Shown piece after piece: positions 1,531 to 24,374 of a DNA stretch of 64,000 nucleotides. How positions within the stretch are numbered: position 1 is the stretch's first letter; the number at the start of each line of letters is the position of its first letter. Below the pieces are notes generated by a model. The model had not been told where the DNA came from and did no database searches. It worked only from the letters and a program-made list of their open reading frames with translations. The position numbers and the translations under genes are program-made. This DNA comes from Spiroplasma endosymbiont of Amphimallon solstitiale (lineage in GTDB: Bacteria; Bacillota_I; Bacilli_A; Mycoplasmatales; VBWQ01): contig NZ_OZ034999.1 of assembly GCF_964030965.1 (NCBI RefSeq), positions 558,001-622,000 of the forward strand, read 5' to 3'.

Positions 1531-1538
1531 CTTAATTA

Positions 1539-2259: not shown

Positions 2260-2262
2260 AAA

Positions 2263-3096: not shown

Positions 3097-3107
3097 AGGA
3101 AAATAAA

Positions 3108-3302: not shown

Positions 3303-3408
3303 AGAAAAAATTAAAATTAGAATTCATGAATTTGAATTATATGATTATCAAGTAAATACTTTATTAGATATTGTAAGAGAAATGTTAAAAGCAAATAAAG
3401 GAAATTAA
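3292..3408 (+). CDS. Short helical peptide (38 aa)
   Basis: Starts within the end of the preceding gene behind AAAGGAG. The composition is amphipathic helix. Overlap on both sides fits operon coding, but the length limits confidence. Unknown function. Confidence 0.45.
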   Translation: MDYKEKIKIRIHEFELYDYQVNTLLDIVREMLKANKGN

Positions 3409-3409
3409 A

Positions 3410-4231
3410 ATGGCAAACGAAAATACACAATCAAATTATACTTTAATCAAATTAATTAGAACTGGTATAAGTCCAATTTGTGCAATGATAGGTACAAGTG
3501 CTTATTATGGTCAAGTAATAGATAATCCATTATTAGGTTCAATTAATAGTTTATTATTTGGTAAAAAATTAGGTTTAGATATATGAAATTTAAATCAAAG
3601 ACCAAATACAAAAACTAAATTAATTAATAGTTCTAAAAAAATTATTTTAGGTTTAGGAACAATTGGTTTAGCAAATTATAGTAAATGAACAGAAAATAAT
3701 ATTAATCCTATTATTCCAACAACACCAACTCCAATAACTACTACAACTACAACAGAAGGTCCTCCATGATTACTATTAAATAAACAAGAAAATCAGTCAT
3801 TAATGGATTGAGATACATATATTAGTTTAAATGCTTATGGTATATCAAATCTTATTAGTGGAATTCTAGAATTAATACCTAATAAATTTGAAGCAATAAG
3901 AAAAATTTGTAATATGGCAACTGGTGGATGTTTAATATCAAGTGGTGTTGCTATGGGTATTAATAATGATTTTAATAATTCTTATGCAGTACCTACCATA
4001 GTTGCTGGTGTAAGTGAAATTATCCATAATTTACTTCCAATAGAAACAAATCATAATAGAGAAATGCAAGAAACTTCATTTACAAATGAAACTGCAAGAT
4101 TAATAAATGATAATAGATTTACTATTAATAGTGAAACATCAAGTCAATATGGTAGTGGTAATATAAGCGAAGCACTATTAAATAATGATAATGCTTCATT
4201 AAATTGAGATTATAATCACATGAGTTTATAA
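3410..4231 (+). CDS. Membrane protein with Thr/Pro linker (273 aa)
   Basis: Hydrophobic segments lie in the N-terminal third (around ISPICAMIG and LGLGTIGLANY) and in the C-terminal half (ICNMATGGCLISSGVAMG). They are separated by a Pro/Thr tract near 105-120. The orthologue in copy 2 (37289) keeps the membrane segments but has a different linker. A third version survives as a fragment at 30063-30323. It may be a virion membrane or host-envelope protein; no family is recognised. Confidence 0.65.
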
Positions 4232-4246
4232 AGGAGGTGAAAAATA

Positions 4247-4405
4247 ATGAATAAAGAAAAATTACTTGAATATTACAATGATAAATTAAAACAACATGAA
4301 AAAGATTTACAAGAAATACGACTGAATGAAGGTATAGCTAAAAATATTTTAATAGACACAAAATATATGATTGAAAAAATTAATAAAGGTGAATTTGATG
4401 AATAA
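4247..4405 (+). CDS. MNKEK-family small protein (52 aa)
   Basis: Paralogue of the gene at 2699: same MNKEK start, charged helix, and GEFD ending. Preceded by a perfect AAGGAGGTGA site. In copy 2 this position instead holds an unrelated 62-aa gene (38137). Confidence 0.65.
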   Translation: MNKEKLLEYYNDKLKQHEKDLQEIRLNEGIAKNILIDTKYMIEKINKGEFDE

Positions 4406-4446
4406 TCAAAAATAAAAAAATAAAAAATTGAAAGGAAAATATAAAA

Positions 4447-4635
4447 ATGAAAGAATTTTTAAAAGCACTTGAAACAATTGGAATAAGCACTGGTATATTA
4501 ATTTGCAGAGAAATTATTGTTTTATTAAAACGATTTATTACAACTCCAAAACATGTTAGAGCAAATAACAAAATTATCAAACATCAAAAAAAATTAGCAA
4601 AATTAAATGAAAAGATTAATAAAGAAAATAAATAA
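4447..4635 (+). CDS. Membrane-anchored basic peptide (62 aa)
   Basis: One hydrophobic helix (residues 6-27) followed by a strongly basic, helical tail rich in Lys and Asn. The tail is nearly identical in copy 2 (38344) while the first 15 residues differ. Such a layout could tether DNA or a virion component to the membrane. That is inference. Confidence 0.65.
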   Translation: MKEFLKALETIGISTGILICREIIVLLKRFITTPKHVRANNKIIKHQKKLAKLNEKINKENK

Positions 4636-4652
4636 TAAAGGAGAAAAATAAT

Positions 4653-4838
4653 ATGACAAAAATTGAATTTAATGAAAAATATAGAAAACAAGATATCAGT
4701 ATTGATAGAGATTTTGATTTACATATTGATAATTGTTTTAAATTTTCTGATATCAATACATTAGAAAATGCTGTTAATGATTATAAAAAACTAATAAGTG
4801 AAATGCCACAATTAGTTAAAGATTGATTATTGGGATAA
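4653..4838 (+). CDS. Conserved small protein MTKIEF (61 aa)
   Basis: Follows AAAGGAG and precedes the scaffold gene. The protein is acidic and helical. In copy 2 the same gene (38550) is split by an IS5-family element. No known domain. Confidence 0.65.
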
Positions 4839-4855
4839 GATTAGGAGAATGTTAA

Positions 4856-5230
4856 ATGTTAGAAAATGAAAATAATGTTCAACAAACAACTGAACCTTTA
4901 ACTGAAAATAATGCTCAACAAGAAATAGAAAATAAAGTTAATGAAGCAGAAAATAAGTTAAATAAACTTAATCAAGAAATTAAAGAAAAAGAAATAATTA
5001 ATATATTTAAAAAATATCAAGTTAAAAGTGAATTTTATGATTTTTTAAAATTTAAAACTAATAATTTAGAAAATTCAAAAATTGAAGAAACTATTAAAAA
5101 AATCATTAAAGAACAACCAGTATTTAAAGAAACAATTAATACAGGTGGCAAACCACAAACAATAATAACAAATCAACCAAGTTCAATAAAAAGTACATTA
5201 TTGGATTATAAAAATAATAATAATTTATAA
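4856..5230 (+). CDS. Scaffolding-like coiled-coil protein (124 aa)
   Basis: A Gln/Asn/Glu-rich N-terminus leads into a heptad-rich coiled coil (about residues 28-50), then a compact helical region and a loose tail. Size, charge and position directly before the capsid candidate match scaffolding proteins of short-tailed phages (phi29 gp7 class). Copy 2 orthologue at 39687. The function is inferred from order and shape. Confidence 0.6.
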   Translation: MLENENNVQQTTEPLTENNAQQEIENKVNEAENKLNKLNQEIKEKEIINIFKKYQVKSEFYDFLKFKTNNLENSKIEETIKKIIKEQPVFKETINTGGKPQTIITNQPSSIKSTLLDYKNNNNL

Positions 5231-5248
5231 CAGAAAGGAAATCAAAAA

Positions 5249-6430
5249 ATGGCAATACAATTCAATAAAAATTTAGATAATACCGAAAAATTAGTAGAAG
5301 CACCAGAGTTTATAGAATTTTATAAACAATCAAATTCACCATGAGCAAGTTTTTTTCCTATCGAAATGGTTAATTCAACAAAAATTGAATTTATAGTTAA
5401 AAAACCAAAAAATTCAGAAATTAAAGTATTAAAATGAAATGATAAAAGCAAAGGATTAGATGTTAGTTATGCTGAAACTATTAAAATTTTAAAAGAAATT
5501 AAAGAAGAAGCAGTTGCGGGTGAAATAATTGCTAATGTTGATTTAAATGCTGAAAATGGACAAAATTTATTAAATACAATGCAATATGAAGTTGCTAATG
5601 ACTTAGCAGATTATTTAGCAAATAATGATACAAATGTAATTGCAAAATATGCAACTAAAATAGACATTACTGATAAATCACCAGTAGGATATTTAAAATC
5701 AATGTTAGATGCTTGAAATACTTTATTTCAACTAAGAAATAGTAATAATTGTCGTTTTTTTATTACTAATAATCTTTATGATAGTATTGTTTATTTAGCT
5801 AATAATAAAGGATTAATTACTGATAATCAGATTGCTCAACAATTAAGATTAAATGGAAATGATTTATATATTAAAGGTGTACTATGTCAAATTGTAATGG
5901 ATGATTATATGACATTTACTGATAATAATGAAACTAAAATTATGTCTTTTGTTTTAGCAACACCAAGAGCAATGAAAAGATATATGTTACAAAATACAGT
6001 TGTATATGTTCAAGATATTGCTGATGGTAAAGTTGGAAGAAGATATTTAGTTGGTGGAGAAGTAACTGGTGAATCAATACCCTATATAACAGATGAAGAA
6101 ACAACTTCACGCTGAATGTTATGTGCAATTGTTAATAATGATAAAAATGATTTAAAAACTAAGATTACAAATTTAACAACTGATATTACTGCAAATGGTA
6201 ATAACAATAACAATGAATTAAATACAGAAATAAAAAGTACTAATGAACTTAAATCATTAAATCCAAATTTAACAAATCCAACTATTAAATATTTTAGTGA
6301 TGCACAAGGAAAAACTAATGTAAGTAATCAAAAACAAAAAGCAGGTGACTTATATATAACTATTACTGCAAATATTAATGACTTAAATTATAAAGGAACA
6401 ACAAATCCAATTAAAATAACTCTTAAATAA
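5249..6430 (+). CDS. Major-capsid-like protein (393 aa)
   Basis: No membrane segment. The central region (about 150-220) alternates helices and strands, with FFITNNLYDSIVYLAN followed by an LRLNGNDLYIKGVLCQIV strand pair. This is the pattern of HK97-fold capsids, where a target helix is followed by a pair of strands and a D-x-Y-M loop. The C-terminal ~100 residues form a less conserved, Asn-rich domain ending in NPIKITLK, possibly a surface domain. It lies behind the scaffold candidate. Copy 2 (40080) has diverged moderately. Confidence 0.55.
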
Positions 6431-6444
6431 AGGAAATTAATATC

Positions 6445-8313
6445 ATGCCAATTGGTACAACTAGTACAGCAATACTTTTAAACATAAATAAACCAAAACA
6501 TACTAGAACAAGTAACCAACAAGAAAATAAAAGTTTTTGATGAGAAATTTTAGAAATGATTGGTGTACAAGTAATAACAGTAGCACTTGCTCCTTTTACT
6601 GGTGGTTTAAGTGAAAGTATAGCACTTGGATTAGGTGCAAGTGATTTAATTGCTAGTATTAGTGCTGTTGATGTAGAGTTTTTAACTGATTTTACTATTA
6701 ATCAAGTTTATGATTATTTAAAAGGAAATGTAACACCATTAAATACTTTTTTTAATATATTACCTGCATTTGTTGGAATTAATAAAATTAGTCGTGGTTA
6801 TCGTACTACTAAATTTATTAAGTTAGCACAAAAAACTAAAACATTAGAACAAATTGGTGTTAAAGAAGCAAAAAACTTACAAGAAATTATTAGTCAAGTA
6901 AGTGGAAAAGAAATTTTAACAGATAAAATCATTGGTAATAAACGTTATTTATTTAATTATAGTTTGGCACCTAATCGTGAAACAATAACACAAAATTTAG
7001 GTTATGTTGCTGAAAAACAATTTAAAAATAATTTTAAATCTTTAAAATCACAACAAATAAAAGAATATTTATCATTACAAAATACATTAATAAAATTAAG
7101 TCCACAATTAACTCCAAAGTTTAAAATTAAAGATATTGAAAAAGCAAATAACTTTTTAAAAAAATATAATACTGAATTAAAAGAAGTATTAAAAATGAAC
7201 CAACATGATTGATTAAATTTAGTTCATACAATACATACAGAGAATAGATATGGAAAAACTTTAATTTTAGATTTACAAAAAATTCGTGCTAATGCTATTA
7301 AATTTAATTTTAAAAATAGTTCAATTCATAAAATTGTTTTAAATGCAAATAAAATTTTTAAGTATTTTGATATTAGATTTTATTTAAAAAAAGGTTTAAA
7401 TAAATTTTGAAAAAATACACCATATTTTGAAAAATTACGAGAAAGTATATATAAATTACAAGAAAAATTTGAAAAATTAGAAAAACAAGCATTTGAAAAT
7501 ATTAATAAATTAAAAGAAAAAGCAACAGATTTATTTACTAGTGCAGAAAAAAGAGCAATTAAACATGCACAATTAATTCCACTAAATTCACCAGTATTTA
7601 TGGGTTGTAAAATTCAACCTTTATCATTAGACAAATGTGCAATTACTATTTATCATCGTAATCCTAAGTATAAACCAATTACAGTTGTTGATAGTATTCT
7701 TAAAGCAAAAACCTTTAATTTTGTAGAAAAGTAATGATACATGATAAAGTGTTATTTTTAGAGAATTTTTACACTAAATAATGTTACTTTTAACAAATTT
7801 TTAATTAAAAATAATATTTTAAGTGTAAATTGATGAATAATTTTTGGTCATCCATACTTTTCTACATAATTAAAAGCAAAAACTTTTGTTACTCAAATAC
7901 ATCCATTTCATTGATATCGTTGATATAGTGGTTGATACATTGGTTATGGTGTTAATCGTAATAAATGATTAAAAGCAATAGCATTTGCTCCACCAGTGGT
8001 GCAACAAGTAATTAGAGATAGTTTTAAAGTATATAGAGAAATATTTAGAACTATTAGAACTTATCATAAAGTAGTAAATGTTATTAATAATCCTATTGAA
8101 AATATTAATAAATCATTTAAAAGTGTTGGTTTAAAATTTTCAGTTAATACTTTATTTGGTACTGGACTATTACATCATTTAGAAAAATTTGCATATAGTC
8201 AAGTTGTAGAAAAAGGTAAGAAAAAATTACAAAAAGAAATTATCCATATATCACATAGGAAAACTAAAACAAAAACTAAACATTATAAAAAAGCATTTTT
8301 TAAGGAATGATAA
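6445..8313 (+). pseudogene. 565-aa virion-like protein, disrupted by a MITE
   Basis: Without the 163-bp insertion and its 8-bp duplication the gene encodes 565 residues, as in copy 2 (41287). Residues 30-80 are glycine-rich and hydrophobic (membrane-active), the middle is a long charged coiled coil, then comes an aromatic block (IHPFHWYRWYSGW in copy 2) and a basic tail ending in a TGA Trp codon plus TAA. It could be a DNA-ejection or minor head protein. Here the frame stops at 7734 inside the MITE, leaving a 429-aa product. Confidence 0.7.
7713..7875 (+). mobile_element. 163-bp MITE, copy a
   Basis: Ends CTTTAATTTTGTAGAAAAG and CTTTTCTACATAATTAAAA; flanked by GCAAAAAC at 7705-7712 and 7876-7883. 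The termini match the IS1595-like elements of this window but there is no transposase. It inserted in the virion gene of copy 1 only. Confidence 0.95.
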
Positions 8314-8316
8314 ATT

Positions 8317-10590
8317 ATGATTAATAAACTTTGAACTGATGTCAGTCTTGAAAATTATAATAACTGATATCCATTAACTGGAAAAATTACAGAAACTCCA
8401 CCGCAATATATAAATACATGACCTAATGTCAAAGATTGATTTACAACTTTTGCTATTCGCGCTCAAAATGATATTAATGCTTATCTTGATTTTATTTTAT
8501 CTAAATTTCCTTTTGATAGTTTTAAAGATGAATTAATTAAAGAAACATTAAGAGATATGGTTTATGTAATGGTTGAACATTGAGTATTTAATCGTACACC
8601 AATTGAATTTAATGTTGATGCTACTATTCAATTCAATAATGGTACATCATTTAATGCAAGTAGTATTCCTACAATTAATGTTTGAGATTTAGCACCAAGT
8701 AGAATGAAAATATGAGCAAAATTAACAGAATTAAAACAAGTATTTTCAAATTATAATCAAGATGAAATAGATATTGAAAAAATTGACTTAAAAGTATTTT
8801 ATACTAGAAATCAAGTTGATGAATTAATTAAAGAACAAAAAGAATTTACATTATCAAAACAAATAAAATTATATGATGATTTAGTTAATGATAACGAAAA
8901 TGAGATATATAGGGGTCGTGTTACAAACTTTATAAATAAAGGTTATGTAGCAACTGAATATGACCCAAAAACTGAAACAATGATTTTAGATTGACCAGAT
9001 GAAATTGGGACATTACCACCCGAAGCATTACAAAATAATCCACAAATTGGTGATTTTACTCATGCTGCGACTGCTGACTTTTCTGCTAAACAACAAAAAC
9101 GAATTACTACAAATGAAAATAGTATTAAATTATTAGAAAATAAAGTTGATATTAATAAACAAAATATTGATGATATTAAAAATAATTGATTTAATATTGA
9201 AACTAGTCCTTTATGAAAAAAAGTTAAAAATGAAAATATTAAAACAGATATATGATATATTATTGATTGAACATATTATTTTATCGATAGTAAACAACTT
9301 ATTATAAGTAATAATAAATTAACTAAATCTAATATAAGAATTACTAATCATCAAATAGAAAATAGACAAATAATAATTGAAAAAATTGATGTTAATATTG
9401 ACAAAGTAATGTTATTATATGATGATAATTTAATAAAATTTATTGTTGCTAATAGCACAAAAAAGTATACACCAATAATTCATAATATATATCAATATCA
9501 AGGTACTGGAACACCAACTGAATTTATAGCAGAAGAAAATACTGAACGTGATTATTACACAAAACTAGAAACTAATAATTTATTAGATAAAAAACAAGAT
9601 AAATTAATTGCAGGTGCTAATATAACTATTGATGAAAATAATAAAATTAGTGCTAGTGGTGGTAAAATCGATTTAACTGATTATTATAAAAAAGAAGAAG
9701 TAGATAAAAAATTAGAAGACACAGAAAAAAAGTTTCCAGTAGCATTTCAATTGAATGCTGTAAGTCAAGAAATCCCTAATTTAGAAACTATTAATAAAAC
9801 TGTTGCTGGTGCTATTAATGAAAATAAAGCAAATATTGATAAAAAACAAGATAAAGAAATATGAAAAGTAATAAGTAAAAGTAAAAATAATCGTGAATGA
9901 GATACGTTTGAAATTAATTTTAATACTGTATATAGAGTAATTATAACATTAGATAGATTACCAGTAAATCAAGCAAATATAAAGCATAAAGTAGAATTTA
10001 AAACTGGTAATTATTTAGGTGGAGATTATTTACTTGCAAAATTTAAAATTAAAGATGAAGATGTAATATTAACTTTAACTGTTAGAGAAAGTAGTTTTAA
10101 TTGTAGTTTATATTTAAAAGGTGGAGATATTAATTATGGTGCTATTCTTTTATTAGAAGAATTACAAAATACAATTAAAGTTGATGTTACACCAAAATTA
10201 AAAATTAATTCAAAAAGTTTAGAAACAAATGAAGTTGAAGAAAATTGTTGAGATATTGAATTACCAAATAATCCAACACCAAGTCCAAATAATCAACAAT
10301 GAAAAGATGTAGGAACAAGAGAAAAAAATAAATGAGATAATTGACAAATTACTTATGATTTTATAGTTAATAAACATTATAGAGTTTATTATTCTTGAAG
10401 TATATATAATCCAGTTTATACTATTCAAGAATTTATTATAACGGATAACAAAATTGCTGGTGTACCAATACAAACCTTTAATGATAGTGTTAATATAGTA
10501 ATTTTATCAGTTCAACATGCAAAATTAATTACTATTTATAGTGGAAAAGGTAATTTAAAAGGTAATGTATGAAAATTAGAAGAATTATAG
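8317..10590 (+). CDS. Tail-fibre / receptor-binding-like protein (757 aa)
   Basis: The first ~290 residues are nearly identical to copy 2 (42988) and likely form the virion-attachment part. The rest is diverged apart from a central island around YYTKLETNNLLDKKQDKL, the repeat type common in tail fibres and baseplate spikes of Firmicute phages. The C-terminal beta-rich part ends with a GNVWKLEEL-like motif also seen in copy 2. It is the likely host-recognition protein. UAG stop. Confidence 0.65.
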
Positions 10591-10600
10591 GAATAATATT

Positions 10601-10723
10601 ATGTTTTTTAAAATTATAAAAATTATTTTAGGTTTAATTGGAGTAATTCTATCATCAGCAACTGCTGGTTTAATTATATTCATTATTGTAAAAATTATAT
10701 TAAAAATTAATCAAATATTTTAA
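10601..10723 (+). CDS. Short membrane peptide, holin-sized (40 aa)
   Basis: One hydrophobic helix with Gly and Ser-Ser-Ala-Thr-Ala in the middle (LIGVILSSATAGLI) and lysines on both sides. Almost unchanged in copy 2 (45056). It lies between fibre and portal-like genes. A release function is possible, but wall-less hosts need no endolysin, so the role stays open. Confidence 0.6.
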   Translation: MFFKIIKIILGLIGVILSSATAGLIIFIIVKIILKINQIF

Positions 10724-10741
10724 AGAAAGGTGGTGAATATT

Positions 10742-11992
10742 ATGTTAAGTCTATTTAAAAGAAAAGAAAAAAGTAATATTAGTGATAATCAAAATGAAAA
10801 AGTAAAATTTTTAACTAATAAAAATAAAAGTACTCATGCTTCAATTTTAAATTATTTTGGTTTTAATGATTTTAATCATGAAACTTATTTTACTGATTTT
10901 GTAGCAGAAAATAATGCTAATTTATATAATGCTCCATTAGAAATAAATAATGAAACCATTAAACAATATTTAATTCAACAAGAATTTTATAGAAAAAATT
11001 GAAATTCTATTTTTAAATTAAGTAAATTAGGAATTAGTGGTTATTTAATTTATATTGCAAATGATGATCTATATTTTCAATTAGTAGATATACAACAAAG
11101 AATTTATGATATTACTGGTAAATTAATTCAATGTACTATTTTTTATGATAGTTATCAACAAAATGCACAAACTGTAAGATTATTTGAAATTTATACACTA
11201 AATAATGAACAAGTAACTATTAATCGTGCAATTTATAGTATTAATGATACTAAAAAACAAACTAAATTAGATTTTAAATCATACATTAATAATCCTAATT
11301 TATCACAAGAACAAACATTAAACATTAATTATATACCAATAGCAATTATGCGAAATAAAGCAAATGAGTTAGCAGATTGTGATAAAGTAATGGATAAAAT
11401 TAAAGCACTAGATGTTATTTATGAACAAATTGTTTTAGATTGTATTTTAAACTCACCGAAGTTTATTTTTGACCAAACTTATGGTAATGTTCAATCTTCA
11501 ATGGAAGAAGCAGTAAGAATATTAGTTACTAAAAACTATATTTGAAAAACTACTGGTGATAATAATGAAAAAAATGAAAATATTAATATGACAAGCAGTA
11601 ATTTTAAAGGTAAAAACTTAACTGATATCTACGATTGAAATGTTAATGAAATATTTAAACGTTGTGGTATTCATATACCAAGTCAAAAGAAATCTGCACA
11701 ACAATCAGTTCCCGAAAGTACAGCAGTTAATATTTCAACTATTAATTATATTGAACAAAAATTATGACAATTTAATATTGATATTCTTAAATTTATTCAA
11801 ATATTAGTGAAAATTGATAAAGATTTATTAAATAGTAAAACATTTAATATTAATGATGAACAAGAAATTAATAATTTAACAGTTAAATTAAAATTATTTA
11901 ATCCCGAAAATAACCAATTAATAGGAGAAAACAATGGACAACCAAGACAACAAACCACAAACCAAGTTTCCACAGAAACAAAAGCAAACTAA
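10742..11992 (+). CDS. Portal-like protein (416 aa)
   Basis: I chose ATG 10742 because AAAGGTGGTG lies just before it. The central segment INYIPIAIMRNKANELADCD, then a helix pair and a C-terminal helical stem region followed by a Gln/Asn-rich tail, follows the layout of SPP1-type portals. There the phrase for a preferred value and N-x-D/E precedes the two-helix stem. The end overlaps the next gene by 59 bases in another frame. Copy 2 orthologue at 45197 (414 aa). Moderate confidence. Confidence 0.5.
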
Positions 11993-13985
11993 ACTTAATC
12001 AAGCAAATGTAGAAAATGATTATTTAATTGATAATATTCCTTATGACTTTACAAATATGATGAGTGCTACTAGTGACCCAGATATTAATAGAGCATACGA
12101 TGAATTTAAAAAAAGAACAATTTATATTTATGAAATTGAGCGTTTATTTAAAAATAATGAAAATAATAGTTTAAGATTTTCAGCAAATACTATTAAAATA
12201 GGTTTTATTGATATTGATAAAGTATTAAAAACTACTGCTGCTGAAACATCAGACTTTACTATGCAATTAAATCAAAGAGCAAGTACTAATATTAATGATA
12301 ATACAATTGAATATAGTATGACTGATATTAAAAATTTAATATTTCAAGAAATAAATTTATTAAATCAATTTAAGTTATATGCAGTATCTATTAATGAACA
12401 ATCTATTAATGAACAATTAACTGAAAATAATATTGATAATTTATATATTATTAATAATTATTCACAACCTTATCAAAATCCAAAAACAAGAAGTACTAAA
12501 AGTATTACTATTATCAAAATTAAAGATTTTAAAACAAGAGATGGTTACCCAATCATTATTAAATTACAAAAACCATTAGAAAAAGATACAAAAGTAATTG
12601 GTTTAAAAATTAAAGCCCCTAGAAGCATGATTTTCGGCAATATAAAGGTACTTGGTGAAGTTGACAATATGGAAGTATATCCAAAGTTATTTGTTAAAGA
12701 TAAGGTAGCATTTCCGCTGTTATCAATGCCTATTGAAACTCAACCAAAAGTTAGAATATTACAACAATGATTTAGTGAACAAATATTACCTTGAAATTTA
12801 GCAAAACAATTCATAGGACAAGAAAAATCAGTTTTAGATTTGATTAAAATTAGTAGTGGAACTGAAACAAGAAAAGAAGTTATTAAAAACGCAAGAGTTA
12901 CACATGCTTGATTAGGATATGAATTTAGTAATGTTTTAGGTGGTAAATGACCACTAAAAAGTCAAAAAGAATTAAAAGATAAAGAAGTTTGAGATTTTGT
13001 AGGTGAAAGTCAATTTTATCAATATGTTGCAACTAATAATAGATTTGATGATATTGAAATTGAAATAAAAGACGCACCAACTAATGATAGTTTACAACAA
13101 CTATTATTAGATATGCTAAGTTATACATATAACTATAATAGAAACTTCGAAGGTGATACATATAATGATAATGGTAAACCAAAAAATGATATTGCAAAAT
13201 TACGTGCAAAATTTGAAGGACAAAAACCTGATGAAGTAATTACTAATTTATTTAAACAATGAAAATTAGATTATCCTAATTACATAAATTTACAACAAGT
13301 AAAAATTTTTAAACAAATATTTATCATGTTGTCGGAATATATTTATTCAATATTATCAATTAATAAAGGTTTAAACGATGATAATAAGATTTTATTACCA
13401 TATTATTTTGAATTAAAATCAAGTCCAATACATCCTAATAAAGATGATATTTGACAATTTAAAGATGTAAAAGTAATACTAAAATCTGCATATTTTGATT
13501 TTGCAGATATCAATAATATTAAGTTAAAAAATAATGATATTAGTCAAAATGAGTTATTTAAACTTGATGATAATCAATTTAATTGATTATCCATTACAAA
13601 TGAATTAGAAACGAATAACATACCATCATTAATTCCAGCGGATTGAACCTTAGGTAATGGTGAATATGGTAAATACTTTACAAGAGCAATTATTAGTAAT
13701 AATAAAGTGGAAAATGCTTTAAATTTATATGGTTCAAATAAATCACAATTATTTTCTAAATTAGAATTTTATAAAGAAATTTTGCAAATTGATAATACTA
13801 ATGAATTTGAATTACAAATTGAAAATCCGATTAATAATTTAAATCGGATTGAAATAAGTGGAATATTTGGTTCTGGAAATTATGATTTAATTTTAATAAC
13901 AGATAAACAAGAAATAAATTTAACTAATATTAATTTATTTGATAAATATAATGAAAATATTTCTTATATAAATTTAGAAATTTAA
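11934..13985 (+). CDS. Large virion-like protein (683 aa)
   Basis: Begins inside the portal-like gene behind AGGAGAAAAC. Low-complexity Gln/Lys-rich start, then a beta-rich mid part with KAPRSMIFGNIKVLGEVDNM, helical middle, and a beta-rich C-terminal domain (LNRIEISGIFGSGNYDLILI). No Walker A motif, so it does not look like a packaging ATPase. Carries a 15-base tandem unit at 12387-12416 that is single in the other copies. Perhaps a collar or tail-tube protein. Confidence 0.6.
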
Positions 13986-13986
13986 A

Positions 13987-14274
13987 TTATTTATCAAAAT
14001 ATCCATCTGGATAAATTCCATCTCACTTGATATCATAACTTTCATCTGGTTTAATTCCAAAATATAATTCTATTTTGTGTTCATCTTTTGTTTTGTGTGA
14101 CCATATAGTTGTTCCAGCCCCCCCCCAGTAAACATTATACTGATGTCCTAAATAATATTGTAAATCATTAGTTTTATGATGTGCTATTGAACCAACTATT
14201 AAACCAGTTGTAGCAAGAAATAATGCTAAAATTGATGTTATTTTATAAAAATTTGTTTTTATTCATGTTTTCAT
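13987..14274 (-). CDS. Exported or membrane-anchored protein with poly-G tract (95 aa)
   Basis: The start follows AAGGAGTAATTTAAT. A hydrophobic segment (residues 12-30) is a signal peptide or anchor; the rest is aromatic and ends WDGIYPDGYFDK. The nine-C tract on the plus strand (14118-14126) encodes Trp-Gly-Gly in frame. The copy 1b version has eight C and is out of frame. The homologue in copy 2 (48413) has no tract. Transcribed against the virion operon, so perhaps a lysogenic-state surface protein. Confidence 0.7.
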
Positions 14275-14275
14275 A

Positions 14276-14851
14276 TTAAATTACTCCTTTTTGAACATTT
14301 AATTTATATTGAGTAGTTGCTGTTTGATTTTGTAAATCATTTGAATTTATTTCATATTTAAAATATTCAAAAACATCAATTCCTTGTTCCGTATTATTTT
14401 TTAATATTTTTTCATTTATATTCTTAAAATAATTATGTTTTCAATTTTTATATTCTCTCTTTTTATTATTAGAATTAAAATTATTATTAATAATTTGTTG
14501 TTTTTGTTTTTGATTTGAATGTTTAATAAATAAATTATAATTATTAATTATTCTTTCTTTTAAATCTAAATCAAAATATCAAAAATCTAAACTTCAATGA
14601 AAATGACTAATATATTTTCGTCAGCATTTTTGTGCAATAACATAATTAAGTTCTTCAAACTCAAATTTTAAAATATTTGTATTTAATTCATCTTTTAAAA
14701 CAGTAAGAAATTGTATATTTTGAATTAATTCTTTTTCATAATTAATATTTTCTTTTAATAAAGTTTTATAAGTGGCTAATTCAATAATATTTTTTTTCCA
14801 ATCATCATTTATAATTTTTATTAATTGATTATTATTAACAACTATTTTCAT
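14276..14851 (-). CDS. Coiled-coil protein of the leftward operon (191 aa)
   Basis: Helical, Asn/Lys-rich protein with likely coiled coil in the first 80 residues. One base separates it from the start of the poly-G gene, so the two are co-transcribed. The C-terminus DLQNQTATTQYKLN matches the end of the broken gene at 27841 (DLQTQSSTVKSKLN). In copy 1b the gene is split by IS256; copy 2 lacks it. Function unknown. Confidence 0.65.
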
Positions 14852-14928
14852 ATTAAATTACTCCTTTTTTCCTTGATTTTACTTATAAATTGTACTATTT
14901 TTGATTATTTTTACAAGTATGCTTTTAA

Positions 14929-14968
14929 ATGCAAAATAACGCCTAAATTAAAGGCGTTTATTTTATGA
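14929..14968. promoter_or_regulatory. Inverted repeat between divergent genes
   Basis: GCAAAATAACGCC and GGCGTTTATTTT flank TAAATTAAA. The repeat lies between the leftward 191-aa gene and the rightward transposase gene, and recurs in copies 1b and 2 (48907-48944, with an extended CGCAAAATAA/TTATTTTGCG arm). A TATACT box and TTGAAA follow. Candidate operator or transposase-binding site. Confidence 0.5.
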
Positions 14969-15148
14969 GACCTATACTATTAATTATATTGAAATTGTTT
15001 ATTATATTTTAAATATGAAAGCATTTTTTAAAATATTTTTTATTTTATTTAAAATAACACTTATATATTTATATAATAATTAAGTAAATTAATTTTTTAA
15101 ATATATTTACAATAAATTTAAAATTTAAAAAAAGTTAGGAGAAAAAAT

Positions 15149-16267
15149 ATGAGTTTTAATTACTTATGAACTTTAAATGAAGCAACTAAAAGAATGTATC
15201 AATCATTTAGAGATGATGTAAAAAATCAATGAGAAAAAACAGATTGAAGAATCTTAAAAGAAAGAGATAGAAAATATATCCCCGTTAAAATTAAAACAAG
15301 AACTAGAAATACTATCAATGGTCTTGTTACTTATAAATGTCGTGATTATAAATATTATGATGAACAATTAAAAAAATGAGTTCCTATTTGTTTATTAGAT
15401 GAAAAATTGCAATTACCTAAATACAAAAGGACTTGTCAAGATATCAAAAATAATGTTATTGAACATTTTGCAGATGGAAAAAAATATCGTGATATTTTAC
15501 ATACTATGAAACAAACAAAATTTAGTACAACAAGTATTGGAAGAGTATTTCAAGAATATCAAGTCAATAAATTAGATGTTCCTAAAATAAAATTAGAACC
15601 AAATCAATTTATTTATATTAGTATTGATGATGGACATCGTAAGTTTTGAAAATTTAAACGTAATTCTGGTAAATATTCAATGCGCTTAGTATTATTTTGT
15701 ACAGATAATATTAATCATAAATTAGTTAATAAAAGAGTAGATGTAATAATAAGACCAACAAAAACAGCAATTGGTGTTAAAAAAACTGCTGAATTTATTT
15801 TAGAACAAGGAAATAGATTTTTTGAAAATTTTGACCAAGCAAAAATTATTATTTGTGGTGATAGTGCAGAATGAATTAAAGATGTTGCTGATTATTTAGG
15901 TGCACAATTTGTTTTAGATAAATTCCATTTAGTTAAAAAGTTATATGTAGGAATAATTGCTGGAAATAAAGGAAAATATTGAAACGAATATAATACTTGT
16001 AGAAATTTTATTGAAAATTGTCAATATGATGAGTTAATAAAATATATGAATGAAATATTAAAAAATCATAAAAAATTAAAAAAACAATATTTTAAAAATA
16101 ATAAACAAGGAATTGAAAATCAAGGTGCTAAATGAAATATAGGTACTTTTGCTGAAAGTAATATTTGATATATTTTAAAAGAAATGCTTGGTAATAGAAC
16201 ATATAGTATAAATATTTATATTAAAATGGTTATTTTTAAGTGTAATCTTGTAAATTCTAAAACATAA
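15149..16267 (+). CDS. UPF0236/ISLre2-type DDE transposase (372 aa)
   Basis: Resembles the Mbov_0401-like transposase of mycoplasmal ICEs. An N-terminal region and helix-turn-helix-like segment (about 100-150) precede an RNase-H-fold core. IDDGHRKF gives D160/D161, IICGDSAEW gives D238, and FAESNIWYILKEM gives E336, a plausible complete DDE triad. It follows GTTAGGAG. Its place at the right end of each copy suggests it moves the whole element. It could instead be a separate insertion element that became fixed beside it. Confidence 0.8.
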
Positions 16268-16508
16268 TCAAAATTTTTATTTTTATTAAAATATTAAAAA
16301 CTTATTAAATTAAAAGTTAATAAGAATTTTTGTTGTGTATAAATATTAATTTTATTATTGATTTTTTCAATATTTGTATTTTAATTGAAATTAATTTAAT
16401 TTAGTAGTAAGATGTATTTACAATTGCATATAATTACAGTTATTTCTTCTCTATAATTTGAAAGAAATGTTTAAAAAGTAATTATATCCTCCGTTTTTGT
16501 TACCGTCC
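16268..16508. other. Non-coding right end of the element
   Basis: No gene. Identical to 23722-23964, and partly shared with 50760-50890 (TAGTAGTAAGAT, then TTTACAATT and TTATTTCTT). It ends at ACCGTCCCA, the last bases common to copies 1 and 1b, so it probably contains the right recombination site. Confidence 0.5.
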
Positions 16509-17178
16509 CAAAGTATTTCAACAAAAACTTTATATAACATGTTTAAAACAAATCGAATGGGTTTTGATGAAAATAACTTATTGAGAAAAGGAAAAAATAA
16601 ACCTCACAAACAAAAAGAAACTAGGGGCAGAATTAATAATTGTAAGTCTATTCATGAAAGAAATTTAATCATTCCTAATATTAAAAATATAGAAGAATTT
16701 GGTCATTTAGAGGGTGATACTATCATTGGTAAAGATCATAAAAGTTCTATTATTACTTTAGCTGATATATGATCAAAAACCACAATTCCTTTAGCAACTA
16801 AAAATAATAAATCAGAAAATATTACAAAAAGTATAATAAAATTTATTTCAAAGTTACAAAAAGGAACAGTTAAAACTATTACTTTTGATCGTGGTAAAGA
16901 ATTTAGTAAATGAAAATTAATCGAAAAAAATTGTAATGTTAAGATTTATTTTGCAGATCCTGGTAAACCTTGTCAAAGAGGTTTAAATGAAAATAATAAT
17001 GGTATTTTAAGAAGATATTTACCAAAATCTACAGATCTATCTTCATATAAACAAAAAGATTTAAATACTATAGCATTTCAAATTAATTCTACACCCAGAA
17101 AATCACTATCTTATAAAAGACCAATAGATTTAATACAATTATTTTAAAAAACTGTCCCATTTATATTTACAATTCAGG
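16509..17178 (+). mobile_element. IS30-family element, 5'-truncated
   Basis: Matches the full IS30 copies at 52452 and 58839 from the middle of the transposase to the right inverted repeat ending CAATTCAGG. The left ~390 bases are missing, replaced by the end of copy 1. The remaining transposase frame runs to 17147 and lacks its helix-turn-helix. Confidence 0.9.
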
Positions 17179-17311: not shown

Positions 17312-17689
17312 AACTTAACTGATATCTACGATTGAAATGTTAATGAAATATTTAAACGTTGTGGTATTCATATACCAAGTCAAAAGAAATCTGCACAACA
17401 ATCAGTTCCCGAAAGTACAGCAGTTAATATTTCAACTATTAATTATATTGAACAAAAATTATGACAATTTAATATTGATATTCTTAAATTTATTCAAATA
17501 TTAGTGAAAATTGATAAAGATTTATTAAATAGTAAAACATTTAATATTAATGATGAACAAGAAATTAATAATTTAACAGTTAAATTAAAATTATTTAATC
17601 CCGAAAATAACCAATTAATAGGAGAAAACAATGGACAACCAAGACAACAAACCACAAACCAAGTTTCCACAGAAACAAAAGCAAACTAA
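17312..17689 (+). pseudogene. Portal-like protein, C-terminal fragment
   Basis: Encodes the last ~125 residues of the protein at 10742. The N-terminal ~290 residues were lost at the IS256 scar. No start codon belongs to it. Confidence 0.9.
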
Positions 17690-19667
17690 ACTTAATCAAG
17701 CAAATGTAGAAAATGATTATTTAATTGATAATATTCCTTATGACTTTACAAATATGATGAGTGCTACTAGTGACCCAGATATTAATAGAGCATACGATGA
17801 ATTTAAAAAAAGAACAATTTATATTTATGAAATTGAGCGTTTATTTAAAAATAATGAAAATAATAGTTTAAGATTTTCAGCAAATACTATTAAAATAGGT
17901 TTTATTGATATTGATAAAGTATTAAAAACTACTGCTGCTGAAACATCAGACTTTACTATGCAATTAAATCAAAGAGCAAGTACTAATATTAATGATAATA
18001 CAATTGAATATAGTATGACTGATATTAAAAATTTAATATTTCAAGAAATAAATTTATTAAATCAATTTAAGTTATATGCAGTATCTATTAATGAACAATT
18101 AACTGAAAATAATATTGATAATTTATATATTATTAATAATTATTCACAACCTTATCAAAATCCAAAAACAAGAAGTACTAAAAGTATTACTATTATCAAA
18201 ATTAAAGATTTTAAAACAAGAGATGGTTACCCAATCATTATTAAATTACAAAAACCATTAGAAAAAGATACAAAAGTAATTGGTTTAAAAATTAAAGCCC
18301 CTAGAAGCATGATTTTCGGCAATATAAAGGTACTTGGTGAAGTTGACAATATGGAAGTATATCCAAAGTTATTTGTTAAAGATAAGGTAGCATTTCCGCT
18401 GTTATCAATGCCTATTGAAACTCAACCAAAAGTTAGAATATTACAACAATGATTTAGTGAACAAATATTACCTTGAAATTTAGCAAAACAATTCATAGGA
18501 CAAGAAAAATCAGTTTTAGATTTGATTAAAATTAGTAGTGGAACTGAAACAAGAAAAGAAGTTATTAAAAACGCAAGAGTTACACATGCTTGATTAGGAT
18601 ATGAATTTAGTAATGTTTTAGGTGGTAAATGACCACTAAAAAGTCAAAAAGAATTAAAAGATAAAGAAGTTTGAGATTTTGTAGGTGAAAGTCAATTTTA
18701 TCAATATGTTGCAACTAATAATAGATTTGATGATATTGAAATTGAAATAAAAGACGCACCAACTAATGATAGTTTACAACAACTATTATTAGATATGCTA
18801 AGTTATACATATAACTATAATAGAAACTTCGAAGGTGATACATATAATGATAATGGTAAACCAAAAAATGATATTGCAAAATTACGTGCAAAATTTGAAG
18901 GACAAAAACCTGATGAAGTAATTACTAATTTATTTAAACAATGAAAATTAGATTATCCTAATTACATAAATTTACAACAAGTAAAAATTTTTAAACAAAT
19001 ATTTATCATGTTGTCGGAATATATTTATTCAATATTATCAATTAATAAAGGTTTAAACGATGATAATAAGATTTTATTACCATATTATTTTGAATTAAAA
19101 TCAAGTCCAATACATCCTAATAAAGATGATATTTGACAATTTAAAGATGTAAAAGTAATACTAAAATCTGCATATTTTGATTTTGCAGATATCAATAATA
19201 TTAAGTTAAAAAATAATGATATTAGTCAAAATGAGTTATTTAAACTTGATGATAATCAATTTAATTGATTATCCATTACAAATGAATTAGAAACGAATAA
19301 CATACCATCATTAATTCCAGCGGATTGAACCTTAGGTAATGGTGAATATGGTAAATACTTTACAAGAGCAATTATTAGTAATAATAAAGTGGAAAATGCT
19401 TTAAATTTATATGGTTCAAATAAATCACAATTATTTTCTAAATTAGAATTTTATAAAGAAATTTTGCAAATTGATAATACTAATGAATTTGAATTACAAA
19501 TTGAAAATCCGATTAATAATTTAAATCGGATTGAAATAAGTGGAATATTTGGTTCTGGAAATTATGATTTAATTTTAATAACAGATAAACAAGAAATAAA
19601 TTTAACTAATATTAATTTATTTGATAAATATAATGAAAATATTTCTTATATAAATTTAGAAATTTAA
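17631..19667 (+). CDS. Large virion-like protein, copy 1b (678 aa)
   Basis: Same as the protein at 11934 but five residues shorter, because the 15-base unit is present once. Full length and apparently intact, though its virion operon has been deleted upstream. Confidence 0.75.
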
Positions 19668-19668
19668 A

Positions 19669-19955
19669 TTATTTATCAAAATATCCATCTGGATAAATTC
19701 CATCTCACTTGATATCATAACTTTCATCTGGTTTAATTCCAAAATATAATTCTATTTTGTGTTCATCTTTTGTTTTGTGTGACCATATAGTTGTTCCAGC
19801 CCCCCCCAGTAAACATTATACTGATGTCCTAAATAATATTGTAAATCATTAGTTTTATGATGTGCTATTGAACCAACTATTAAACCAGTTGTAGCAAGAA
19901 ATAATGCTAAAATTGATGTTATTTTATAAAAATTTGTTTTTATTCATGTTTTCAT
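19669..19955 (-). pseudogene. Exported poly-G protein, out-of-frame variant
   Basis: Identical to the gene at 13987 except for eight instead of nine C at 19800-19807. The loss of one base shifts the frame after the Trp-Gly-Gly position and gives an early stop. Possible OFF state of a phase-variable gene. Confidence 0.8.
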
Positions 19956-20154
19956 ATTAAATTACTCCTTTTTGAACATTTAATTTATATTGAGTAGTTG
20001 CTGTTTGATTTTGTAAATCATTTGAATTTATTTCATATTTAAAATATTCAAAAACATCAATTCCTTGTTCCGTATTATTTTTTAGGCAATGTTTAGTAAT
20101 CTGTGTAACTTACAAAAATAACTATGTTTAATTAATTCTAGTAAATATAATTAA

Positions 20155-21417
20155 ATGACTAGAAAGAGTGAGTTACAGATGGCTAAAAAACAAAATATTA
20201 ATAATAATGATCCAATATCAAAAGCAGTAGATTTATTATTAGAAAATACTGAAGATTTAACAACAGTTTTTAAAGAAGGGGGTTTATATAAAGAATTAAC
20301 AAAACGTTTAGTTGAAAAAATGTTGAATTCTGAAATGCAAAATTATTTAGGATATGAAAAAAATCAACATAGTAATACTGAAAATGCTCGTAATGGTACA
20401 AGTTCAAAAAAATTAATAACTCAACAAGGTAAAATTGAGATTGATGTACCAAGAGATCGCAATAGTGATTTTACTCCTGTAATAGTTGCAAAAAGACAGC
20501 GAAGATTTGATGGTTTTGATCAACAAGTGCTTTCACTATATGCAAAAGGTATGACTCTATCTGACATTAGAATGCAGTTACAAGAGTTATATCATGGTGC
20601 TGATATTAGTGAAAGTGTTATTAGTCAAATTACTGATGATGTTATTGATGATGTCAAAGCATGACAAAATCGACCATTAGAAAGCATTTATCCGATTGTT
20701 TATTTTGATTGTATAGTAGTTAAAGTTAGACAAGATAAACGGATTATTAATAAATCAGTTTATATAGCATTAGGAGTTGATTTAGAAGGTAAAAAAGATG
20801 TTTTAGGCTTATGAATTAGTGAAAATGAAGGTGCTAAATTTTGATTAGCTAATTTCACAGAAATGAAAAATCGAGGCTTAAATGATATTTTGATTGCTTG
20901 TAGTGATAATTTAACAGGCATGTCAGAAGCAATACAAGCAGTTTATCCTAAAACAGAACATCAATTATGCATTGTTCATCAAATTCGAAATAGTTTAAAA
21001 TATGTTTCATACAAACATCGAAAAACTCTAGTTACAGATTTAAAACCAATTTATAGTGCATGTAGTGAAGAACAAGCAATGCAAGCTTTAGAATCATTTG
21101 AAAGTAAATGAAATAAACAATATCCCCAAATTGCTAAATCTTGATATAAAAATTGAGAAAATTTGATGATTTTTATTAGTTATCCTGCAGAAATCAAAAG
21201 AGTAATTTATACAACAAATGCTATTGAATCTGTTAATAGTCAATTACGAAAAGTTATTAGAAACAAAAAAGCTTTTCCTAATGATATGTCAGTTTTTAAA
21301 ATATTTTATTTAGCAATTGAAAATATAACAAAAAAATGAACATTGCCTATTCAAAATTGAAATACAGCAATTGCTCATTTTATGATAAAATTTGAAGATA
21401 GAATTAATCTGAACTAG
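20155..21417 (+). CDS. IS256-family transposase (420 aa; 412 from ATG 20179)
   Basis: Mutator-type DDE transposase. YFDCIVVK (first Asp), CSDNLTG (second Asp) and TNAIESVN (Glu) are all present. The frame is open through several TGA Trp codons and ends NLN at TAG. Length is normal for the family, so it is probably active. The ATG at 20179 beginning MAKKQN is an alternative start. Confidence 0.9.
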
Positions 21418-21458
21418 TACTTTGTAAAACAAAGATACACAGATTTCTAAAAAGCCTC

Positions 21459-21849
21459 AAGAACAAGCAATGCAAGCTTTAGAATCATTTGAAAGTAAAT
21501 GAAATAAACAATATCCCCAAATTGCTAAATCTTGATATAAAAATTGAGAAAATTTGATGATTTTTATTAGTTATCCTGCAGAAATCAAAAGAGTAATTTA
21601 TACAACAAATGCTATTGAATCTGTTAATAGTCAATTACGAAAAGTTATTAGAAACAAAAAAGCTTTTCCTAATGATATGTCAGTTTTTAAAATATTTTAT
21701 TTAGCAATTGAAAATATAACAAAAAAATGAACATTGCCTATTCAAAATTGAAATACAGCAATTGCTTATTTTATGATAAAATTTGAAGACAGAATTAATC
21801 TGAACTAGTACTTTGTAAAACAAAGATACACAGATTTCTAAAAAGCCTC
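21459..21849 (+). repeat. 391-bp tandem duplicate of IS256 right end
   Basis: Second copy of 21068-21458, carrying the C-terminal third of the transposase frame without a start. It may come from one-ended transposition or recombination with another IS256. Confidence 0.9.
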
Positions 21850-22602
21850 ATTTTTTAATATTTTTTCATTTATATTCTTAAAATAATTATGTTTTCAATT
21901 TTTATATTCTCTCTTTTTATTATTAGAATTAAAATTATTATTAATAATTTGTTGTTTTTGTTTTTGATTTGAATGTTTAATAAATAAATTATAATTATTA
22001 ATTATTCTTTCTTTTAAATCTAAATCAAAATATCAAAAATCTAAACTTCAATGAAAATGACTAATATATTTTCGTCAGCATTTTTGTGCAATAACATAAT
22101 TAAGTTCTTCAAACTCAAATTTTAAAATATTTGTATTTAATTCATCTTTTAAAACAGTAAGAAATTGTATATTTTGAATTAATTCTTTTTCATAATTAAT
22201 ATTTTCTTTTAATAAAGTTTTATAAGTGGCTAATTCAATAATATTTTTTTTCCAATCATCATTTATAATTTTTATTAATTGATTATTATTAACAACTATT
22301 TTCATATTAAATTACTCCTTTTTTCCTTGATTTTACTTATAAATTGTACTATTTTTGATTATTTTTACAAGTATGCTTTTAAATGCAAAATAACGCCTAA
22401 ATTAAAGGCGTTTATTTTATGAGACCTATACTATTAATTATATTGAAATTGTTTATTATATTTTAAATATGAAAGCATTTTTTAAAATATTTTTTATTTT
22501 ATTTAAAATAACACTTATATATTTATATAATAATTAAGTAAATTAATTTTTTAAATATATTTACAATAAATTTAAAATTTAAAAAAAGTTAGGAGAAAAA
22601 AT

Positions 22603-23721
22603 ATGAGTTTTAATTACTTATGAACTTTAAATGAAGCAACTAAAAGAATGTATCAATCATTTAGAGATGATGTAAAAAATCAATGAGAAAAAACAGATTG
22701 AAGAATCTTAAAAGAAAGAGATAGAAAATATATCCCCGTTAAAATTAAAACAAGAACTAGAAATACTATCAATGGTCTTGTTACTTATAAATGTCGTGAT
22801 TATAAATATTATGATGAACAATTAAAAAAATGAGTTCCTATTTGTTTATTAGATGAAAAATTGCAATTACCTAAATACAAAAGGACTTGTCAAGATATCA
22901 AAAATAATGTTATTGAACATTTTGCAGATGGAAAAAAATATCGTGATATTTTACATACTATGAAACAAACAAAATTTAGTACAACAAGTATTGGAAGAGT
23001 ATTTCAAGAATATCAAGTCAATAAATTAGATGTTCCTAAAATAAAATTAGAACCAAATCAATTTATTTATATTAGTATTGATGATGGACATCGTAAGTTT
23101 TGAAAATTTAAACGTAATTCTGGTAAATATTCAATGCGCTTAGTATTATTTTGTACAGATAATATTAATCATAAATTAGTTAATAAAAGAGTAGATGTAA
23201 TAATAAGACCAACAAAAACAGCAATTGGTGTTAAAAAAACTGCTGAATTTATTTTAGAACAAGGAAATAGATTTTTTGAAAATTTTGACCAAGCAAAAAT
23301 TATTATTTGTGGTGATAGTGCAGAATGAATTAAAGATGTTGCTGATTATTTAGGTGCACAATTTGTTTTAGATAAATTCCATTTAGTTAAAAAGTTATAT
23401 GTAGGAATAATTGCTGGAAATAAAGGAAAATATTGAAACGAATATAATACTTGTAGAAATTTTATTGAAAATTGTCAATATGATGAGTTAATAAAATATA
23501 TGAATGAAATATTAAAAAATCATAAAAAATTAAAAAAACAATATTTTAAAAATAATAAACAAGGAATTGAAAATCAAGGTGCTAAATGAAATATAGGTAC
23601 TTTTGCTGAAAGTAATATTTGATATATTTTAAAAGAAATGCTTGGTAATAGAACATATAGTATAAATATTTATATTAAAATGGTTATTTTTAAGTGTAAT
23701 CTTGTAAATTCTAAAACATAA
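22603..23721 (+). CDS. UPF0236/ISLre2-type DDE transposase, copy 1b (372 aa)
   Basis: Same sequence as the gene at 15149, with an intact frame, acidic triad and GTTAGGAG site. It is the last gene of copy 1b, 243 bases before the junction with the transporter gene. Confidence 0.8.
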
Positions 23722-24374
23722 TCAAAATTTTTATTTTTATTAAAATATTAAAAACTTATTAAATTAAAAGTTAATAAGAATTTTTGTTGTGTATAAATAT
23801 TAATTTTATTATTGATTTTTTCAATATTTGTATTTTAATTGAAATTAATTTAATTTAGTAGTAAGATGTATTTACAATTGCATATAATTACAGTTATTTC
23901 TTCTCTATAATTTGAAAGAAATGTTTAAAAAGTAATTATATCCTCCGTTTTTGTTACCGTCCCAATAATTTTCATTACCATTCCAAATCATACTTTTTTA
24001 TCTTGTGCAGCATCTTTAAAATTACCTTTTGCTAAAGTAATTCCAATTGCCAATCATGCTAATGGCGTACATAATGCCTCTAAAGTTTTTGTTACTTTAA
24101 ACAATGGTGGAAATGTATTCTCTAATCGTAATGGTGAAAAATATTGACCACTAGTAATATCATTTTGATCAGGAACAATAGCAATTCCAGGAATTAATTG
24201 TGTAACTCAAAAAATAAATCCAACCATAGTTGCAATTAAAATTGGATTTAAAAAAATCTGCTTTACATTCTTTATTAAATTTTCCTTTAATTTTGTAGAA
24301 AAGTAGTGGTATTAGTAAAATTAGCAAAAATATATTTTTATATGGTATTTTTAATATTAAAGAGGTGATTTTAA

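Follow-up and report, generated by a model that had tools for sequence, protein, structure and literature searches.

Phage-like elements of a Spiroplasma genome and their probable transposition by a UPF0236 DDE enzyme

The window analysed here is a stretch of 64,000 bp (bases 558001-622000) from the 2.12 Mb, single-contig genome of the Spiroplasma endosymbiont of Amphimallon solstitiale, in which TGA codes for tryptophan (code 4). It contains a large repeated element that we call copy 1, a left-truncated tandem copy of it (copy 1b) and a second element with ends of another type (copy 2) (Table 1). Comparison of copy 1 with 20 fetched stretches established common limits on both sides: on the left the element begins with GGGAGGTTCCCAAAAAC, 171 bp before the window starts, and on the right it closes with TTTTTGTTACCGTCCC (...GTTTTTGTTACCGTCCC), which gives a unit of 16,680 bp. 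Both ends are imperfect inverted repeats of each other (GGGAGGTTCCCAAAAACATAGGA vs GGGACGGTAACAAAAACGGAGGA). The first-pass annotation of this DNA had closed the element at position 16508; a right end does lie there, but its exact last base is one further.

Table 1. Features of the elements and their flanks (window coordinates unless given as genome)
Feature	Position	Strand	Basis or remark
Copy 1 (type A ends)	1..16509; left end GGGAGGTTCCCAAAAA at genome 557830	+	shared limits, end patterns
RuvC-like nuclease (weak)	1539..1976	+	phrog_1770, E 7.3e-4
Scaffold candidate	4856..5230	+	position and composition only
Capsid candidate	5249..6430	+	position; MaM-2019a capsid family fills the slot in relatives L239/L240
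Virion-region gene	6445..8313	+	565 aa in several other copies; broken in copy 1 at ~7713-7875
Fibre-like protein	8317..10590	+	C-terminal 405 aa 72% identical to part of a same-genome phage protein
Portal protein	10730..11992	+	chain of homology via L238; profile comparison
683-aa conserved protein beside portal	11934..13985	+	no function found
191-aa ORF	14276..14851	-	within stretch flanked by 25-bp direct repeat; slot of sister terminase candidate
UPF0236 DDE transposase	15149..16267	+	PF06782; D160, D238, E336
Right terminal inverted repeat, copy 1	16479..16509	+	end comparison
Copy 1b, left-truncated tandem copy	17312..23963	+	ends in UPF0236 (22603-23721) and right end
8-bp duplication AATAATTT	23964..23971	+	same 8 bp left of copy 1 at genome 557822-557829
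Left target duplication of copy 2, TTAAATTTA	34389..34397	+	flank comparison, empty sites
Copy 2 (type D ends), 16,496 bp	34398..50893	+	UPF0236 split: 49171-49827, 49796-50293
Right target duplication of copy 2, TTAAATTTA	50894..50902	+	flank comparison, empty sites

Some of these features deserve comment. The RuvC-like product aligns with the RuvC of the Spiroplasma phage MaM-2019a (hhalign 92%), but over just 24 columns. What breaks up the virion-region gene of copy 1 is a ~163 bp repeat; repeats of this kind (~163-180 bp long, 93-100% identical and found in either orientation) lie at window 7713-7875, 24486-24650 and 29900-30069, with further copies at 30673-30835, 51808-51987 and 54058-54220. 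The 191-aa ORF and its 25-bp direct repeat together cover window 14268-14869, and among the stretches searched, copies 1, 1b and L032 are the only ones in which this ORF adjoins UPF0236. A run of nine C at 14118-14126, located inside a small minus-strand ORF (13987-14274) and in a window of 22.5% GC, could be a slippery tract. Finally, the right end of copy 1 is abutted by a fragment (16510-17179) of a repeated gene which we take to resemble an IS30-type transposase; such fragments also occur at 52844-53513 and 59231-59900, and fuller copies in the window measure ~1.07 kb.

The last gene of copy 1, whose stop lies 242 bp inside the right end, encodes a 372-aa product that matches PF06782 (UPF0236) with an E value of 7.2e-14 and a score of 51.8 bits (cut-off 24.3). 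Copies 1b and 2 end in the same way, so the first-pass annotation was right in placing a UPF0236-type DDE protein at the right end of all three. It had also considered this protein the sole recombinase candidate, and the ten copy-1 proteins scanned yielded no other recombinase family, nor any match to the MuA or MuB families. Genome-wide there are 64 matches to PF06782, many of them partial. Residues D160, D238 and E336 are invariant in 24/24 aligned proteins, three of which come from loci with conjugation genes, and their spacing and context suggest that they form the catalytic triad. In other mollicutes, PF06782 proteins adjoin conjugation genes of the TraG/VirD4 type, and hence the mycoplasma ICE enzymes look nearer to ours than ISLre2. 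The first-pass annotation had named both ISLre2 elements and mycoplasma ICEs (Mbov_0401-type gene) as known settings of the family. In the UPF0236 tree the branch parting phage from ICE enzymes is weakly supported (80/65), so that one or several phage origins are possible. Numerous UPF0236 genes are also present in another family of the order (stretches L186-L192, from G020, G032, G026, G038 and G013), where their neighbours are ORFs of 724 or 630 aa with no family match where scanned; perhaps these are a further element type.

Five further genomes of the genus were searched, including G001, G002 and G004. Three types of element ends could be distinguished, A (GGGAGGTTCCC), B (GGGAGCGTGTCG) and D (GGGCGGTTGTC), each with its own type of UPF0236: the enzymes of type D are 62-63% identical to that of copy 1, and those of type B 40-41%. 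For 22/22 left ends in the stretches examined, the next right end on the strand is of the same type (it was chosen regardless of type, and dimers are counted twice), at 15.3-18.2 kb except for two at 32-33 kb. The type of UPF0236 agrees with the type of the ends in 17/17 neighbouring pairs. Capsid alleles, in contrast, cross types. As an example, the capsid of copy 1 (type A) is 99% identical to that of a B element, while copy 2 (type D) has a capsid with 98% identity to one from an A element.

From the position of UPF0236 near one end only, one could suspect that it is a passenger, either an insertion sequence or a captured gene, and that the element is moved otherwise, for instance by the enzyme of another element acting in trans. 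That end could have arrived together with UPF0236, and several copies of type A do resemble copy 1 more closely in their UPF0236 region (~95-98%) than in the adjoining 3-6 kb (~88-92%). Besides, copy 2 has kept exact duplications although its UPF0236 is split (the split may be later). A survey of the 41 UPF0236 copies with a length of 300 aa or more makes this explanation very improbable. Virion-region genes lie upstream on the same strand in 37 of them, leaving four without such a gene, in a set of stretches chosen as holders of UPF0236 or capsid hits. None of the 41 has a left end in the 3 kb before it, i.e.: we did not find UPF0236 alone between ends of its own, and a solo insertion sequence (an ISLre2-like short unit with nothing but the transposase) was rejected on these grounds. 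Instead, the left ends, usually 15-18 kb off, match the type of both the right end and the enzyme, and the proteins scanned include no other recombinase to do the work. We strongly infer from these sequence relationships that UPF0236 is itself the catalyst.

Type-A end patterns were found 11 times (left) and 20 times (right) in the genome, while reversed-pattern controls gave 0. The surplus of right ends speaks against a simple whole-unit reading. The ends of all types (A, B, D, and the type 2 described below) start with GG, equivalent to the terminal C of Mutator elements on the other strand, and their repeats are imperfect. We compared the flanks of all left x right type-A pairs within this genome, trying duplication lengths of 7, 8, 9 and 10. 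Exact matches were 8 bp long in three pairs and 9 bp long in two, against shuffling expectations of 0.037 (8 bp) and 0.013 (9 bp); neighbouring ends account for only two of these five (557830/581963, 852341/869588). Across three genomes, exact duplications of 7-9 bp accompany 7/17 neighbouring pairs vs 3/272 non-partners. The remaining ten of the 17 partner pairs have no exact duplication, which weakens the case. Recombination between copies may explain its absence, with support coming from a single swapped pair: left end 1731562 and right end 1701413, which belong to two opposite elements, together fit a single empty site, overlapping by 9 bp, in two genomes (G001 being one of them, where only the first part of the right flank matches). 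Two copies have thus apparently swapped halves by inversion.

A search for empty sites and target duplications had been suggested with the first-pass annotation, and it was fruitful. It covered six insertions, namely five of eight joined-flank sets (L042, L121 and L123 were left out) and one type-2 element. Uninterrupted empty sites were obtained for all except the type-2 element, including both insertions of the window, and at these five insertions the duplication overlaps measure 9 bp twice and 8 bp three times. When the flanks of copy 1 and 1b are joined, with AATAATTT kept once, they match G002 without interruption over 252/252 positions (100%), and the same empty site is present in G001 (99%). 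Copy 2 has uninterrupted empty sites in G002, G001 and G004 (98-99%). A type-B element of G002 has its empty site in G001, and a tandem dimer of G002, dimer B, has ten of them (100%), which lie in repeats within G002 itself. As far as genome sequences can establish it, then, these elements have transposed as whole units.

The sister genome G002 bears four perfect head-to-tail dimers (eight elements), one at C1:84992-115632 and three at other sites, with units of 15.3-17.6 kb and repeats that are 100% identical within each dimer. Junctions had been proposed as a further thing to look for, and in 4/4 dimers the right end of one unit is followed by 5 bp and then by the left end of the next. The spacers (TATAT, CTTTT, ACTTT, and TTACT) are the last 5 bp to the left of each dimer. 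Such an arrangement resembles the circle-junction signature of Mutator-superfamily transposases, with the difference that the spacers are 5 bp long here vs 6-10 bp in PMC3942029, and that what we observed are dimers and not circles. Unequal crossing-over was rejected as the origin of the dimers: at 8-bp duplications it would leave 8 bp, and in dimer B the inner spacer is the 5-bp CTTTT while the outer duplication, GAACTTTT, has 8 bp. It could still be argued that dimers and junctions arose by crossing-over or by assembly errors and are uninformative on transposition, all the more as perfectly identical repeats are what an assembly artefact would look like. We find this hardly credible, since a spacer taken from the left flank recurs in every dimer, an assembler should put such a junction only where right-left molecules exist, and the empty sites of other insertions are independent of dimers. 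We read the dimers as probable products of circles that recombined with the parent copy, or as assembled extrachromosomal junctions, and they could partly reflect the assembly of extrachromosomal molecules. Both origins need the joining of right and left ends of a whole unit, and the circle would be the intermediate of the movement.

The virion reading rests on homology of the portal and on a weakly recognised terminase of sister elements, and for capsid and scaffold on position. A profile of the 416-aa portal found homologues in 13 of 148 genomes sampled across the order, and five of these belong to the same genus. One homologue, L238 (E 4.2e-54), leads in turn to the portal family phrog_64 (E 4e-7), and hhalign against pooled Spiroplasma phage portals gives an E value of 1.1e-4 (57%, 297 columns). 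No profile signal was seen with the MaM-2019a portals alone, and there was no direct family hit. The portal-like gene of the first-pass annotation is upheld by this chain and by the profile comparison, while its fibre gene is upheld for the C-terminal 405 aa only, a part in common with a protein of a terminase-bearing phage element of the same genome. As for its capsid, the name is consistent with the position in a conserved gene order, but the protein has no convincing family match in Pfam, PHROG, PDB profiles or phage records, no signal in profile comparison with other Spiroplasma phage capsids, and no relative in IMG/VR, where the scan finds close relatives only. The PDB profile searches returned nothing for the capsid and one chance-level hit for the portal; in phage records, the capsid and the 683-aa protein were unmatched and the portal hit two records of one phage, again at chance level. 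PHROG scans with capsid and portal family members gave weak matches only, such as a head-tail adaptor family (0.0044) in 2/19 capsid members. AlphaFold confidence was pLDDT 32 for the capsid and 37 for the portal.

Relatives from another family, in genomes G146 and G093, conserve the order RuvC, capsid slot, 565-aa protein, fibre, portal, 683-aa protein. In both stretches of G146 the capsid slot is occupied by the MaM-2019a capsid family (E 7.8e-49 and 5.2e-49), and in G093 by the capsid family of type 2 (1.3e-16). UPF0236 lies to the right in L239 and L241, and stretch L240 stops short of that point. Relatives of the portal region are also found in that other family at L232:4191-5408 and in L233-L236, where the stretches retrieved showed no UPF0236. 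Close to one of these L232-L236 copies lies a transposase of the IS256 type (PF00872).

The relatives also have a 578-aa protein ahead of UPF0236 that matches Terminase_3 below the cut-off (1.4e-4 and 4.2e-4), and nine homologues of it, of 539-568 aa (E at most 1e-143), occupy the same slot before UPF0236. Family scans of the 568-aa terminase candidate gave 0/6 in Pfam and a weak match for 1/5 in PHROG; its 578-aa relatives show no profile match to other Spiroplasma terminases, and PF04466 only below the cut-off. The candidate adjoins UPF0236 in 11/12 B copies and in all four D-like copies with 58-72% identity to L120 (L046, L047, and two from G005), compared to 0/7 of the D copies 87-100% identical to L120 and 0/18 A copies, counts that are partly dependent because dimers are included. 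None was found for the window types A and D in the 14 A/D stretches searched. A canonical P-loop is present in 3/27 members of the 565-aa family and absent from the other focal families scanned and from the long frames of copies 1, 2 and L122; this search missed the L122 terminase candidate, and the profile search was used instead. The element was first described as one of virion genes, and this fits its portal, its fibre and its capsid slot, but the copies in the window show no recognisable terminase, whereas their sisters appear to have one.

These gaps raise the question of whether we are dealing with phages, or rather with an ICE-like element or a plain large transposon whose virion-like genes have been misnamed. 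The company that UPF0236 keeps with conjugation genes in other mollicutes would speak for the latter, together with the movement of mycoplasma ICEs by related enzymes (PMC3942029 and PMC6030558), with a capsid and scaffold that have no convincing family match, and with no terminase found in the window copies. We nevertheless consider it quite improbable: the portal is supported by both homology and profiles, sister elements carry a terminase-like protein, capsid families of known Spiroplasma phages fill the slot in relatives, and part of the fibre is common to a terminase-bearing phage, while no conjugation family was detected among the element proteins scanned (small ORFs were left out). For the B-type elements a phage nature is likely, and virions would be formed; the terminase-less A and D types of the window may be phages or phage-derived.

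Among A and D copies, 11 comparisons of the genes for the capsid, the portal and the 565-aa and 683-aa proteins gave dN/dS values of 0.15-0.47, suggesting that these genes are in use now or were until recently. The capsid is the least constrained, with three of its four values at 0.43-0.47. These data bear on a less favourable view of the window, that its elements are dying prophage remnants that were spread by past transposition only. The virion-region gene of copy 1 is broken, the UPF0236 of copy 2 is split and copy 1b is truncated, as one would expect from remnants. However, the A and D dimers of the sister genome keep open frames for capsid, portal, 565-aa protein and UPF0236, with identical units, and the dN/dS values point in the same direction. 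We regard decay of this kind as unlikely, though well worth keeping in mind.

UPF0236 is not confined to this family of elements. A second family, type 2, was chosen by more distant UPF0236 hits and comprises nine stretches from four genomes, all of them with homologues of UPF0236 and of the L199 terminase (PF04466, 33.9 bits vs 23.2; phrog_2, 5.8e-20) and portal (phrog_533, 1.2e-6). Type-2 ends read GGGCGCATCACTTTAACCCTTAGA and, on the other strand, GGACGTATGAGATTAACCCTTAGA. Both ends were located in two copies, one with the 8-bp GCAATAGC on both sides and the other with no duplication and abutting a type-D left end. In the genome that holds the window (G000), type 2 occupies ~1164000-1192900 and 1374000-1394400 and, on the reverse strand, 1208000-1227999 (L199, L200, L201, L202, L210), and its UPF0236 is again placed at the right end. 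Against MaM-2019a profiles, the type-2 portal, terminase and 941-aa proteins reach 99.7-99.9%, and the capsid 88.6%, or 99.8% with larger profiles; the MaM-2019a capsid label itself rests on the HHpred notes of the records (P22 major capsid, 94.5, 60.5, and 35.9%). According to PMC12453411, the DNA from which the ~19-kb MaM-2019a contigs were assembled came from phage-like particles of S. poulsonii. PF06782 is annotated in these records (OL689226, OL689227, and OL689230), two of which have it as the final gene on the right, and the pairing of phage and UPF0236 is hence not wholly new. Near the place of the sisters' UPF0236, OL689230.1 has an rve/IS30-type transposase (L221:17566-18741); the integration enzyme of MaM-2019a looks like an exchangeable module. 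Transposition of these phages is undescribed in the accessible text of the open-access literature searched, including PMC13375240, PMC12453411, PMC7466169, PMC3942029 and PMC6030558. The anatomy of transposition would be the new part, with the elements seen as transposable phages that use a Mutator-superfamily enzyme.

We conclude that these 15-18 kb phage or phage-derived elements very likely integrate, move and probably multiply by UPF0236 DDE transposition. A phage-like element moved by this enzyme was the central proposal of the first-pass annotation, and exact ends, empty sites, 8-9 bp duplications and circle-type junctions all argue in its favour. In the mechanism that we propose, the UPF0236 enzyme, whose gene lies close to the right end, would recognise both terminal inverted repeats that bound the complete element. 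By analogy with its known relatives, it would first connect the right end with the flanking DNA 5 bp beyond the left end. A circle with the right end-5 bp-left end junction would form while the donor copy remains, and its insertion at a new site would give rise to the 8-9 bp duplications. The A and D forms have gene order and capsid alleles in common with terminase-bearing forms. A more speculative extension, which we put forward tentatively and would sooner doubt than defend, is that the elements represent a second lineage of transposable dsDNA phages, using a Mutator-superfamily enzyme, whose circles serve both as movement and as packaging substrate, with the A and D forms being satellites packaged by the terminase of a co-resident sister.

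A DDE enzyme hitherto tied to insertion sequences and conjugative elements thus appears to serve at least two families of mollicute phages. If true, this helps account for the dozens of element copies that fill Spiroplasma genomes, and would show a single enzyme family at work in insertion sequences, conjugative elements and phages. Sister elements with and without the terminase candidate provide a natural set for studying packaging in trans.

Phage Mu is the textbook phage that lives as a transposon, duplicating 5 bp of its target. Like Mu, the focal element has phage genes bounded by ends that a transposase recognises, and many insertion sites; unlike Mu, it has a DDE enzyme of another family, inverted-repeat ends, duplications of 8-9 bp and an apparent circle intermediate. 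With MaM-2019a (~19 kb) the likeness lies in terminase, portal, capsid and RuvC genes, in the PF06782 gene at the right end of two of three records, and in a capsid family that occurs in relatives of the focal element. Apart from RuvC, however, its proteins have no clear match to the focal ones, and ends, duplications and circles are unannotated in its records. Mutator-type elements, according to Guerillot et al. (PMC3942029), have inverted repeats of 18-39 bp and duplications of 8-9 bp, and their circles hold 6-10 bp from one flank between the ends. The ISLre2/TnGBS group (p-MULT 3) belongs to the same superfamily and has 8-9 bp duplications and circular forms, but ISLre2 is an insertion sequence, and both ISLre2 and TnGBS insert upstream of promoters (same source), whereas the focal unit is 15-18 kb long. 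The MICE/ICEA group (p-MULT 5), as described in PMC3942029 and PMC6030558, resembles the focal element in being large and bounded by inverted repeats and in encoding a DDE enzyme of the Mutator type next to one of its ends; duplications of 8-9 bp are known in the group, and the spacer of its circles is flank-derived. Where it carries conjugation genes, the focal element carries virion-type genes instead.
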